The notes under the pieces are model-generated. The model was not told the origin of the DNA, searched no databases, and worked only from the letters and a program-made list of their open reading frames with translations. A stretch of 64,000 nt of DNA from Bacteroidetes bacterium 2013_40CM_41_45 (lineage in GTDB: Bacteria > Bacteroidota > Bacteroidia > AKYH767-A > 2013-40CM-41-45), in the NCBI GenBank assembly GCA_002215675.1, contig NGFH01000005.1, positions 124,001 through 188,000 of the forward strand, in the 5' to 3' direction. Both the position numbers and the translations under genes were made by a program. This document shows positions 3,891-54,169 of this stretch, in pieces. How positions within the stretch are numbered: position 1 is the first letter of the stretch; each line of letters begins with the position of its first letter.

Positions 3891-3939
3891 AGGAAGTTTT
3901 TCCATTCACCAAATATTTATTTCGTCTTCACCCATATAA

Positions 3940-3960
3940 GTTATCCGTTATCGGTTATCC
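3940..3960. repeat. Heptamer micro-array, GTTATNN x3
   Basis: Three consecutive 7-bp units (GTTATCC, GTTATCG, GTTATCC) lie in the spacer between dgkA and the epimerase gene. The same GTTATNN heptamer occurs four times at 39658-39685 and four times at 54104-54131. Confidence 0.7.
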
Positions 3961-4028
3961 GCTAGTGCACACAGGGATATTTTTCTCGAATAACAAATAA
4001 CATTTTTCTCTGCCTATCTTCGCCCCGT

Positions 4029-5021
4029 ATGTCTAAGAGAATTCTCATTACGGGCGCTGCGGGTTTTCTGGGCTCACATCTATGCGACCGTTTTCTGAAA
4101 GAGGGATTCTATGTAACGGCAATGGATAATCTCATTACGGGTTCGTTAAAAAACATAGAGCATCTTTTACAAAATGAAAATTTTGAATTCATCCCTCATG
4201 ATGTTTCGAAATTTGTCGAAGTGCCACACCGCAAAACCGGGCACAACGGTGATGTGCATTACATTCTTCATTTCGCTTCGCCTGCATCGCCCATTGATTA
4301 TTTAAAGATTCCTATTCAAACATTAAAGGTTGGTTCACTTGGAACACATAACCTGCTGGGGCTTGCAAAAGCAAAAGGAGCCCGAATGCTGATTGCATCT
4401 ACCAGTGAAGTTTATGGCGACCCGCTGGTGCATCCTCAAACTGAAGAGTACTGGGGAAATGTGAATCCCGTTGGCCCGCGCGGAGTATATGACGAAGCAA
4501 AACGTTTCCAGGAAGCGATGACGATGGCATACCACCGCTATCACGGAGTAGAGACACGCATTGCGCGAATCTTTAATACATATGGGCCGCGTATGCGGCT
4601 GAATGACGGCAGGGTGCTGCCCGCTTTCATAGGACAAGCATTGCGGGGCGAAGACCTTACCGTGTTTGGCGATGGAAAACAAACGCGTTCGTTTTGTTTT
4701 GTGGATGATTTGGTTGAAGGAATTTACAAACTGCTTTTCTCTGATTATGCAGAGCCTGTTAACCTGGGCAACCCCGATGAGATTACCATACTTGAATTTG
4801 CTGAAGAAATAATAAAGCTCACCGGCACAAAGCAGAAAATTATTTTCAAGCCGCTGCCGCAGGACGACCCGAAACAACGTCAGCCCGATATTTCGCTTGC
4901 AAAAAAAGTTTTAAGATGGGAGCCAAAAATTTCGCGGCAGGAAGGATTAAAAATTACTTATGATTTTTTCCGCAAGCTGCCGCACGAGGAATTGTTTAAG
5001 AGCGAGCATAGGTTTGGATGA
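4029..5021 (+). CDS. NAD-dependent epimerase, probable UDP-glucuronate decarboxylase (UDP-xylose synthase)
   Basis: Extended short-chain dehydrogenase of 330 residues. The Rossmann motif [12 protein letters not shown] (residues 9-20), the catalytic Tyr-Lys pair Y154-x-x-x-K158 in VYDEAKR, and S124-T125-S126-E127 are present. The stretches [11 protein letters not shown] (81-91), [19 protein letters not shown] and DDPKQRQPD are the hallmarks of UDP-xylose synthases, which convert UDP-glucuronate to UDP-xylose. A near-consensus box TATCTTCG at 4015-4022 ends 6 nt before the ATG, so the leader is very short. It stands alone, with a degraded T9SS sequence downstream. A dTDP-glucose dehydratase is less likely given the ASPASP and RQPD motifs. 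Confidence 0.85.
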
Positions 5022-5022
5022 G

Positions 5023-5050
5023 AATGCAGAATTAAGAATTAAGAATCTTC
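5023..5050. repeat. Heptamer micro-array, AATNNNN x4
   Basis: Four 7-bp units (AATGCAG, AATTAAG, AATTAAG, AATCTTC) run directly from the stop of the epimerase gene into the T9SS remnant. This is the point at which the remnant loses its upstream part. Confidence 0.55.
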
Positions 5051-39570: not shown

Positions 39571-39729
39571 TTCCTGCGACCTCTCCGATTCTAATCGGAG
39601 CGCGATAGCTGGACGGAGTTTATCCCGATAAATATCGGGACTACACCCGAAATAACCGTTATATGTTATTTGTTATTTGTTATAAGAATGAAAGAACTGA
39701 TAATTTTTTTTCCTGCGACCTCTCCGATT
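39571..39729. repeat. Direct 20-bp repeat with internal hairpins near the tRNAs
   Basis: The same 20 bp (starting TTCCTGCGACC) occurs at 39571-39590 and 39710-39729. After the first copy come two perfect hairpins: CTCCGATT-CT-AATCGGAG (39583-39600) and TCCCGATA-AA-TATCGGGA (39623-39640). The rest of 39730-39917 shows nothing I can name. Confidence 0.6.
39658..39685. repeat. Heptamer micro-array, GTTATNN x4
   Basis: Units GTTATAT, GTTATTT, GTTATTT and GTTATAA, gapless, between the two 20-bp direct repeats. Same core as the arrays at 3940 and 54104. Confidence 0.7.
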
Positions 39730-49113: not shown

Positions 49114-49979
49114 GCGTGAACTGTTGTATTCAAAAAAATATTTCCGGGAATGGAATGGATAATCCCGAATTGTAATGCTTTATCAAAAAATATTTCAATT
49201 GCTTTTCGCCCACCCGTTCCTAAATCAACAGAGTGCCCGTTCACATATAAAGCAATATGTTTTTTTCTCACTTCTTCGTCCATTTCCTGCGCGTGCTGTT
49301 TTACATAATCGTAGCTCGAACCGGGGTTTGCCATTGCGAATTCAACACTTCTCCGCACCACACGGTTTATTTTTTCCTTCGTTTCATCGGGCAGGTTTCT
49401 TCTCACTGCAATTCCACCGAGCGGTATAGGCTGACCCGTTTCTTTTTCCCAAAGTTCTCCAAGGTCGCATATTTTTTTTAACCCCCTGCTTTCATACGTA
49501 AACCTGTTTTCATGAATAATAACTCCTGCATCTACTTTGCCCGAGAGAACAGCGTCCTCTATTTTAGAAAAAACCATTTCGGTTTTATAAGGCACCTGCG
49601 GAAAGAAAAATGAAAAAAGAAAATTGGCGGTGGTGTTCATTCCCGGAATAGCTACCATACCCGTAGTTTGTGGTTTATAACTTTCGCTTTTTGAAACAAG
49701 CAACGGCCCCACTCCATTTCCGAGTGCGCTTCCTGAATCAAGAAGTTGATATTTGTCTGTGATTTTTGTAAACGCAGCAAAGCTTACTTTGATGACATCA
49801 GCATCTCCCCGAAGGCTGCGTTGATTCAATGCTTCCACATCTTCCATTACAATATCAAATTGCAACCCTTCTGTATCTACCTTACCATGAACTAAAGCAT
49901 CAAACATAAAAGTGTCGTTTGGGCAGGGAGAAAAGCCGAACGTTAGTTTGTTGTCTGTCGTTTGTCGTTTGTCGTTCAT
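49110..49979 (-). CDS. mqnD: 1,4-dihydroxy-6-naphthoate synthase (menaquinone, futalosine pathway)
   Basis: 289 residues. LTFGFSPCPNDTFMFDALVH is the MqnD signature, with KVSFAAFTKI, LGNGVGPLLVSKSE, GMNTTANFLFSFFFP and DAGVIIHENRFTY further on; the fold is a periplasmic-binding-protein type used in the cytoplasm. It converts cyclic dehypoxanthine futalosine to 1,4-dihydroxy-6-naphthoate. The first ten codons (NDKRQTTDNK) are extra to the usual start and lie over a 7-bp repeat (49957-49977). The gene follows mqnB and overlaps hldD by 4 nt. Confidence 0.9.
   Translation of the reverse strand: MNDKRQTTDNKLTFGFSPCPNDTFMFDALVHGKVDTEGLQFDIVMEDVEALNQRSLRGDADVIKVSFAAFTKITDKYQLLDSGSALGNGVGPLLVSKSESYKPQTTGMVAIPGMNTTANFLFSFFFPQVPYKTEMVFSKIEDAVLSGKVDAGVIIHENRFTYESRGLKKICDLGELWEKETGQPIPLGGIAVRRNLPDETKEKINRVVRRSVEFAMANPGSSYDYVKQHAQEMDEEVRKKHIALYVNGHSVDLGTGGRKAIEIFFDKALQFGIIHSIPGNIFLNTTVHA
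49957..49977. repeat. Heptamer micro-array, GTCGTTY x3, over the mqnD start
   Basis: Units GTCGTTT, GTCGTTT and GTCGTTC end at the first base of the mqnD start codon (CAT on the plus strand at 49977-49979), so the repeat is translated as the N-terminal extension of MqnD. Confidence 0.6.
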
Positions 49980-52543: not shown

Positions 52544-52957
52544 ATGGTTTATATTACAAGAAAAGAAACTTTTACGGCAGCGCATAAGTTGTTTCGCGAG
52601 GGATGGAGCAACGAAAAGAACCTTGAAGTGTTTGGCAAATGCGCCAACCCCAACTGGCACGGGCATAATTATACCCTGCTGGTAACGGTGAAGGGAGAAA
52701 AAAGCCCTGAGACCGGTTTTGTGGCTAACCTTTCTGATATGAGCAAAATCATCATGGAAAAAGTCATTAATAAAGTCGACCACAAAAACCTGAACCTTGA
52801 CGTTGATTTTATGAAAGATAAATTATCCACCACCGAGATACTTGCCGAAGAAATCTGGCGCCAGATTGAAAAACCCATCAATGCGCTGGGCTGCAAGCTG
52901 CATTGCGTAAAAGTTCAGGAAACAGAAAAAAATTACGTTGAATACTTTGGGGAGTAA
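52544..52957 (+). CDS. queD: 6-carboxy-tetrahydropterin synthase / 6-pyruvoyl-tetrahydropterin synthase family
   Basis: 137 residues from ATG 52544. Zinc His residues lie in FTAAHKLF and NWHGHNYTL, the catalytic Cys in FGKCANPNWHGH, and the C-terminal VQETEKNYVEYF glutamate binds the pterin. QueD makes 6-carboxy-tetrahydropterin for queuosine; PTPS makes tetrahydrobiopterin precursors. folE, the enzyme that supplies the substrate, lies just downstream, with the S23-family gene inserted between, so the two probably work in one pathway. Confidence 0.85.
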   Translation: MVYITRKETFTAAHKLFREGWSNEKNLEVFGKCANPNWHGHNYTLLVTVKGEKSPETGFVANLSDMSKIIMEKVINKVDHKNLNLDVDFMKDKLSTTEILAEEIWRQIEKPINALGCKLHCVKVQETEKNYVEYFGE

Positions 52958-52985
52958 ATCAGAAATTCGAATATCGAAATACGAA
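52958..52985 (-). repeat. Left inverted arm of the S23 element, TTCNNAN heptamers x4
   Basis: Read on the minus strand: TTCGTAT, TTCGATA, TTCGAAT, TTCTGAT. 25 bp (52961-52985) match the reverse complement of 53406-53430 with 3 mismatches, so the two arms can pair around the S23 gene. Confidence 0.75.
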
Positions 52986-53015
52986 AGAAAAATGAAATTT
53001 TAAATTCAAAGAAAA

Positions 53016-53393
53016 ATGTCTGACGAGGAAAAACCTGACAAACCTGTCTATGACCTTGAAGAAAGAACATTGATTTTTGCGCAACGAGTTCGTAAGCTGA
53101 TTAAACAAGTTCCTAAAACAGTTTCTAACATCGAAGATTCAAAACAATTATCCCGCGCTTCGGCTTCGGTTGGAGCAAACTACATTGAGGCAAACGAATC
53201 GTTAGGTAAAAAGGATTTTTTAATGCATGTTAAAATTTCAAGGAAAGAATCAAAAGAAACACGATTCTTTTTAAAATTAATTGATATTCCTGACTCAATT
53301 GAAATCGAAAGAAAGTTCCTAATCCAGGAATCTACAGAATTGATGAATATATTTGGAGCGATATACAGGAAATCAGAAAATAATAATTCTTAA
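53016..53393 (+). CDS. Four-helix-bundle protein of the 23S rRNA intervening-sequence (S23) family
   Basis: 125 residues, all helical: [20 protein letters not shown], then [18 protein letters not shown] (the family signature, Q-L-x-R-A-x-x-S-x-x-x-N-x-x-E), [22 protein letters not shown]. This family was first found inside intervening sequences of 23S rRNA genes; its role is unknown. Here it lies between two pterin genes and is enclosed by inverted arms made of 7-bp repeats (52958-52985, 53406-53433). The unit of about 476 bp resembles an intervening-sequence element that has moved to a protein-gene spacer. Confidence 0.85.
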
Positions 53394-53405
53394 TTTATAT
53401 CTTGC

Positions 53406-53433
53406 TTCGGATTTCGAAATTCGGATTTCTAAT
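53406..53433 (+). repeat. Right inverted arm of the S23 element, TTCNNAN heptamers x4
   Basis: Units TTCGGAT, TTCGAAA, TTCGGAT and TTCTAAT, gapless. The last unit runs into TAATTTTA (53430-53437), a near-consensus -7 box placed 8 nt before the folE start, so the arm may also supply the folE promoter. Confidence 0.75.
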
Positions 53434-53445
53434 TTTAATGTACCT

Positions 53446-54081
53446 ATGAGCATCGACAAAAAAATGTTGGAACAAAACGAGATGGACGGTTATGCCAAGA
53501 TTGACCAGTATAATCCGCGCCTCGTTAAAACGATTTCGGAGCATTATGCTTCTATTATCTCTAGCCTTGGAGAAGACATTGACCGGGACGGCTTAAAGAA
53601 AACACCGGAGCGGGTTGCCAAAGCCCTTCAGTTTCTTACGCATGGCTATGACCTTAACGCGGCGGATATTCTTAAATCGGCAATGTTTAAAGACAAATAC
53701 CAGCAAATGGTTATTGTAAAAGACATAGAAATTTATTCGCTGTGCGAACATCATCTCCTCCCCTTTTTCGGCAAAGCGCATGTGGCATATATTCCGAACG
53801 GATGTATTGTTGGCTTGAGCAAAATTGCAAGGGTGGTTGAAGTTTTTGCCAGGCGGCTGCAGGTGCAGGAGCGCCTTACTACTGAAATCCGCGACTGCAT
53901 CCAGGATACGCTGAATCCGCTGGGTGTTGCTGTGGTCATAGAAGCAAAACATCTATGTATGCTCATGCGTGGCATTCAGAAACAAAACTCTGTTGCCACT
54001 ACGTCAGCTTTTACGGGCGAATTTGAAAATGATAAAACACGCGGAGAATTTATCCGCCTTATTTCTGCCAAACTTGCATAG
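53446..54081 (+). CDS. folE: GTP cyclohydrolase I
   Basis: 211 residues from ATG 53446 (the frame is open back to 53353 over the repeat arm). Motifs: [33 protein letters not shown] with zinc Cys and His, [23 protein letters not shown], and [15 protein letters not shown] with the second zinc Cys. It opens GTP to dihydroneopterin triphosphate, feeding folate and queuosine. The queD-like gene upstream uses its product. Confidence 0.94.
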
Positions 54082-54089: not shown

Positions 54090-54103
54090 CTGGCGCGAAA
54101 TTA

Positions 54104-54131
54104 GTTATATGTTATCCGTTATAAGTTATAC
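54104..54131. repeat. Heptamer micro-array, GTTATNN x4
   Basis: Units GTTATAT, GTTATCC, GTTATAA and GTTATAC, gapless, between folE and the Bax inhibitor-1 gene. Confidence 0.7.
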
Positions 54132-54169
54132 GAATAAAAAAAACCTTAATCATAACCTCTAAACCAACA

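Follow-up and report, generated by a model that had tools for sequence, protein, structure and literature searches.

An S23 gene enclosed by heptad arms at the queD–folE junction

The window analysed here, 64,000 nt of contig NGFH01000005.1 of Bacteroidetes bacterium 2013_40CM_41_45, carries a small gene of the S23 family between a queD-like gene and folE (Table 1), as an initial annotation of the same DNA had proposed. Its product matches both PF05635 (E 6e-12, 46.2 bits against a cut-off of 33.8) and TIGR02436 (E 1.8e-16, 60.3 bits against a cut-off of 24), and the AlphaFold2 model is a confident four-helix bundle (pLDDT 91) whose best PDB matches, 2RLD and 2GSC, are both solved S23 structures. 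Weaker matches were to the Avd protein of diversity-generating retroelements (DGRs), alone and in an RNA–RT complex (4DWL/8UB7), and this predicted fold relationship suggests that S23 may bind nucleic acid. The upstream neighbour did not reach the QueD equivalog cut-off in the profile search. The site is a protein-gene junction, outside any rRNA gene.

Table 1. Features of the queD–folE locus, in window positions
Feature	Position	Strand	Evidence
PTPS/QueD-like upstream host gene (6-carboxytetrahydropterin synthase family)	52547..52957	+	PF01242 E 3e-33
Left arm, ~7-nt units, starting at the queD stop codon	52956..52985	+	Period-7 score 13.2
S23/23S_rRNA_IVP four-helix-bundle gene, 125 aa	53016..53393	+	PF05635, TIGR02436
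Right arm, inverted ~7-nt units, ending ~10 nt 5′ of the folE ATG	53406..53435	+	Period-7 score 9.8
folE (GTP cyclohydrolase I), downstream host gene	53446..54081	+	PF01227 E 8e-74; TIGR00063
Solo heptad array, no S23, 3′ of folE (TTAGTTATATGTTATCCGTTATAAGTTATACG)	54101..54132	+	Direct sequence reading

Both arms are 7-nt-periodic and built of diverged ~7-nt units. Their best alignment is ungapped, with 26 of 30 columns complementary, and the inverted 25-nt pair described initially forms its core. The arm score of 18 was equalled by none of 20,000 random pairs of the same geometry drawn from 464 kb of the genome, among which the maximum was 15. S23 is the sole gene between the arms, and a transposase gene is absent from the element. 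We discarded membership of a phage or defence system, as a PHROGs search gave no match and the only PADLOC match was negligible.

The predicted fold of the transcript pairs the left arm with the right, and its overall stability is unremarkable (z -1.77). A G-U bias among arm mismatches was sought and none was found (110 vs 124, p 0.40; negative at both sample sizes), so that RNA pairing as a selected trait is unsupported; the missing bias weakens an RNA-level role for the arms, without excluding such a role. The suggestion that folE takes a near-consensus promoter from the right arm finds no support: no sigma-70-like site was found there on the + strand, and the closest occurrence of the Bacteroidota-type motif TAnnTTTG, at ~53348, falls in the S23 ORF and is within chance expectation.

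Armed S23 genes within the genome, the order and the phylum

There are ten PF05635 genes in the genome and, once oriented and aligned, all ten have inverted arms of short tandem units, with arm scores of at least 13; an armless S23 gene did not appear among them. The units are mostly 7 nt long, 8–9 nt in a few elements, and the heptamers vary from element to element. Every one of the ten sits between co-directional protein genes, consistent with the earlier proposal that protein-gene spacers serve as insertion sites; given a control rate of 41% for co-directionality on both sides, this would arise by chance with a probability of ~1e-4. Recognisable operon partners flank most of them (nuoH/nuoI, pstA/pstB, exbB/exbD, serC/serA, paaB/paaC, hutI/formimidoyltransferase and queD/folE; names were read from neighbour sequences and are profile-based only for the queD-like gene and folE), and the ten sites are metabolically unrelated. 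At L007 and L008, the S23 ORF takes in the right arm at its 3′ end, which adds a variable C-terminal tail, and the stop codon of the ORF overlaps with the beginning of the gene that follows.

An arm score of at least 12 was found for 66% of 98 S23 genes of the order, as against 3.8% for mismatched flanks (left and right flanks taken from different elements) and 2.2% of 320 control genes from this genome. Phylum-wide, 75% of 116 S23 genes were armed, compared with 8.8% of mismatched flanks; this set combined the phylum with a named genome collection that included strains of Pedobacter, Flavobacterium, Sphingobacterium and Litoribacter. For between a quarter and a third of S23 genes, the arm score detects no arms. 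Of the armed elements with both neighbours callable, 47 of 57 in the order and 79 of 86 in the phylum-wide set point the same way as both neighbours, against the control rate of 41%. The left arm contains more G than C in 119 elements, and the opposite holds in 10. One candidate for reversed arms, L209, was rejected, as its nested outer arms are oriented like those of other elements.

Three pairs of S23 genes at orthologous sites gave dN/dS values of 0.04–0.08, with dS near saturation; S23 is under purifying selection.

Empty junctions and S23-less derivatives

The gap between queD and folE is 491 nt in this genome; among 29 relatives compared, most have an S23-free gap of 5–38 nt, as expected of an insertion relative to those relatives, and the pattern of an armless S23 gene at this place in all of them did not appear. 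The other two junctions compared, in relatives with both genes on the fetched locus, resemble it: at nuoH–nuoI, S23 was seen only in this genome and G002, the others having mostly short gaps, and at serC–serA it was seen in this genome only, gaps elsewhere being mostly short. These comparisons are of gap length and gene content, as the arm ends of the elements are fuzzy and the empty-site relatives are too diverged for base-level alignment.

Several same-family relatives (G005, G006 and G008) carry heptad structures at these junctions without the gene. At nuoH–nuoI, G005 (L271) has a hairpin that lacks the gene but has ATTTCGG-type arms, as do the S23-bearing elements of G000 and G002; G006 has an AGTTTAC hairpin without S23 (fold z -7.1); and the spacer of the G008 complex I operon (L269) is 364 nt long and holds a long AGTGAAC-type array (period-7 score 94.8), also without S23. 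At serC–serA, G006 has a AGGTTCGA hairpin without S23. Heptad arrays occur at 4 of 21 such loci in S23-less family members against a background of 5.2% (p 0.02), an excess that rests on three junctions picked for having S23 in this genome. The S23-less hairpins and arrays at shared junctions look as if certain junctions were favoured and the gene had been lost or exchanged there. To call the element at queD–folE stand-alone is too modest: it is one of ten of its kind in the genome, and hairpins lacking S23 occupy the same junctions in some relatives.

Arm type follows the S23 lineage

Among 136 armed elements, arm similarity climbs with S23 protein identity (Mantel r 0.23, 0 of 1000 permutations as high, leaving out pairs with any similar neighbour). 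Different-site pairs with less than 20% S23 identity have a common arm type in 0.5% of cases, as against 54% of the 13 pairs above 70%; those 13 pairs span 70–86% identity and include no near-identical recent copies. None of the 92 same-genome pairs has a common arm type. Arm type tracks S23 protein relatedness, different sites included, rather than the genome. An S23 subfamily whose arms are of the GAGATATGAGACGTGAG type spans Pedobacter, Mucilaginibacter, Sphingobacterium, Daejeonella and this genome. Several of its members (seen among L162, L164, L221, L184, L156, L214 and L001) lie beside genes of acyl-CoA metabolism, in several genera, the neighbour identities being read from sequence; because they are partly at one common junction, part of the pattern is inherited position.

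Arms turn over at orthologous sites, in some cases to a different unit, and stay complementary. An element’s own arms pair better than ortholog-mixed arms (Wilcoxon p 0.0008; the test admitted armed elements only, which somewhat inflates the effect size), as exemplified by L062 and L149, with arm scores of 29.5 and 31.5 within and 11–12 across elements. Either selection acting on a stem or DNA repair templated by the hairpin may have preserved the complementarity. Two S23 genes ~2.3 kb apart on G004:C7 (L114, 2557–2904 and 5216–5563) share their arms and resemble each other in their flanks, and represent a local duplication.

Heptad repeats beyond S23

In 464 kb of the genome we counted 21 period-7 arrays, with period 7 dominant, and none in shuffled sequence; the 464 kb includes a 400 kb sample, so genome-wide array counts are extrapolations. 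Most solo arrays have no S23 gene nearby and no inverted partner, and we therefore rejected an exclusive association between heptads and S23. Solo arrays without S23 lie in or beside window spacers at 3935–3964, 5021–5046, 39658–39683 and 49946–49976, as well as 3′ of folE at 54101–54132, the last falling outside the array survey at its threshold.

Four S23-free Bacteroidota genomes (G192, G063, G065 and G131; L319–L330, L337 and L338) yielded no heptad arrays in the 280 kb sampled, and 16 other genomes yielded 49 in 1.38 Mb. Across these 20 genomes, heptad density showed a weak positive correlation with S23 count (rho 0.47, p 0.037), and the contrast between low- and high-S23 genomes was not significant (p 0.16). 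A scan for inverted heptad pairs, which requires exact 9-mers and missed the window’s own element, returned hairpins without an ORF, an A-rich hit that is probably false, and a single ORF-sized pair (L345), the ORF of which is S23-like by eye. An ORF-less heptad hairpin in G093 (L341, 10175–10305) has an additional structured loop (fold z -7.5).

The available portions of two earlier reports bear on these repeats: in a SPADE survey, heptamers are the most frequent of the tandem repeats in prokaryotic intergenic regions, with no known function (PMC6344855), and TAACTGA intergenic heptamer repeats have been described without explanation (PMC4679880). S23 is not mentioned in those portions, and in the open-licence literature searched we found no report of a link between S23 and heptamer repeats or operon junctions; the novelty of the association is provisional, as the search was confined to open-licence papers.

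Discussion

Our data point to the locus being a compact element, mobile now or in the past, in which an S23 gene and inverted, diverging ~7-nt arms occupy a co-directional intercistronic gap, and we consider this the probable explanation. We read the element as transposase-less, related to rRNA intervening sequences and resident in operon junctions. The core idea of the initial annotation is right, and it reaches well beyond the window locus. Its proposal of a mobile unit finds support in the presence or absence of the element at the same junctions, in the arm type common to related S23 genes at different sites and in the S23-less derivatives, which together suggest mobility; a recent copy with a matching donor did not come to light. 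A search for near-identical elements at two unrelated sites found none, and the only identical copies within one genome are those of the local duplication (L114), with similar flanks. Some sites are old, being common to up to eight genomes, and vertical inheritance therefore accounts for part of the distribution.

In the model we propose, the element would be co-transcribed with its host operon in sense, and the arms would form a long mRNA stem with the S23 ORF in the loop. An S23 oligomer, with its Avd-like fold, could bind its own stem, and RNase III-like cleavage of that stem, by analogy to the rRNA intervening sequences of Coxiella, would let the operon tolerate the element. Arms and S23 would move as a unit, without a transposase gene of their own, and loss of S23 would leave a heptad hairpin or a solo array behind.

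Alternatively, the heptad arrays could be independent spacer repeats, produced by slippage in the manner of STRR sequences; hairpin-templated (quasipalindrome) DNA repair, and not selection, would keep inverted arms complementary, with S23 merely settling or persisting in such palindromes. Such an origin, which we regard as possible but doubtful, would account for the abundance of solo arrays (21 in 464 kb), for arm mismatches without G-U bias and for S23-less arrays and hairpins at the same junctions, and would suit repeats that are, in the part of the survey available, the commonest prokaryotic intergenic tandem repeats, with no known function (PMC6344855). It fits poorly with arms that track the S23 lineage across sites and genomes and differ between elements of the same genome, with the consistent G excess of left arms (119 vs 10 elements), and with the lack of arrays in 280 kb of S23-free genomes against 49 in 1.38 Mb elsewhere, although the low-versus-high contrast alone is not significant.

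A domesticated module for operon processing or attenuation, in which the stem tunes the flanking cistrons, S23 autoregulates and movement is rare and ancient, is a comparably tentative proposal, and it may overlap with the mobile-element explanation. That three tested junctions are S23-free in most relatives, and that no common metabolism links the ten sites of this genome, speak against such a module; conservation of sites in up to eight genomes, the recurrence of a related subfamily at acyl-CoA metabolism junctions in several genera (read from sequence), strong purifying selection on S23 and the nearly uniform co-directionality of sites phylum-wide speak for it. The resemblance of the S23 model to Avd of DGR ribonucleoproteins raises the further idea of an accessory unit of a diversity-generating or other retroelement. 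We consider it very improbable, and for this genome largely refuted: no RVT_1 reverse transcriptase (PF00078, E <= 0.001) was found in a 99.5% complete genome with ten elements, making a resident DGR-type partner unlikely, and no template or variable repeat was noticed at the window locus.

If the mobile-element explanation is correct, a further kind of insertion would be known within core operons (nuo, pst, ser, paa), which it apparently leaves in working order, and a little-recognised hairpin element, gained and lost over time, may lie behind part of the 7-letter repeats of bacterial genomes that have lacked an explanation. We would go further only tentatively, to a distinct transposase-less mobile class of operon junctions in which each S23 recognises its own heptamer, and of which the intergenic heptamers of Bacteroidota, perhaps of other phyla, could largely be the arms, solo hairpins and relics. 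The coupling of S23 and heptads makes several points testable, namely binding of the heptamer stem by S23, cutting of the stem in operon mRNA and joint movement.

Comparison with known systems

Cyanobacterial STRR sequences are 7-nt tandem repeats in spacers. As far as the available text of two reports goes (PMC4679880, PMC6344855), intergenic heptamer repeats share with our arrays the 7-nt tandem spacer units, in Bacteroidota, Cyanobacteria and others; they differ in that the arrays here are inverted pairs around an S23 gene. MITEs and palindromic units such as BrickBuilt (PMC4596501) are likewise short inverted-repeat elements with ORF-less forms, whereas the arms here are heptads specific to a lineage and have no fixed terminal sequence, and the gene that goes with them is S23, with no parent transposase. 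Unlike a classical transposon or IS, the S23 element has no transposase gene between its arms. REP and BIME sequences are further palindromic units, short inverted-repeat elements that also have ORF-less forms. We know of no DGRs with heptad arms; Avd of DGRs (4DWL, 8UB7) shares the four-helix fold of the S23 model, but a reverse transcriptase was not found in this genome. With mobile elements generally, the S23 element has in common an empty site in relatives, at queD–folE, nuoH–nuoI and serC–serA.

There is also a close likeness to the intervening sequences of 23S rRNA with an S23 ORF, in Leptospira and Coxiella, which are of similar size (428 nt in Coxiella, where RNase III excision has been shown; PMC4990558) and likewise place an S23/PF05635 ORF inside stem-forming inverted repeats. 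In our elements, by contrast, the host is a protein-gene operon junction, the arms consist of 7-nt tandem units and one genome has ten copies. Its location sets the element apart from rRNA intervening sequences; in anatomy it matches one that has been moved into operon junctions.
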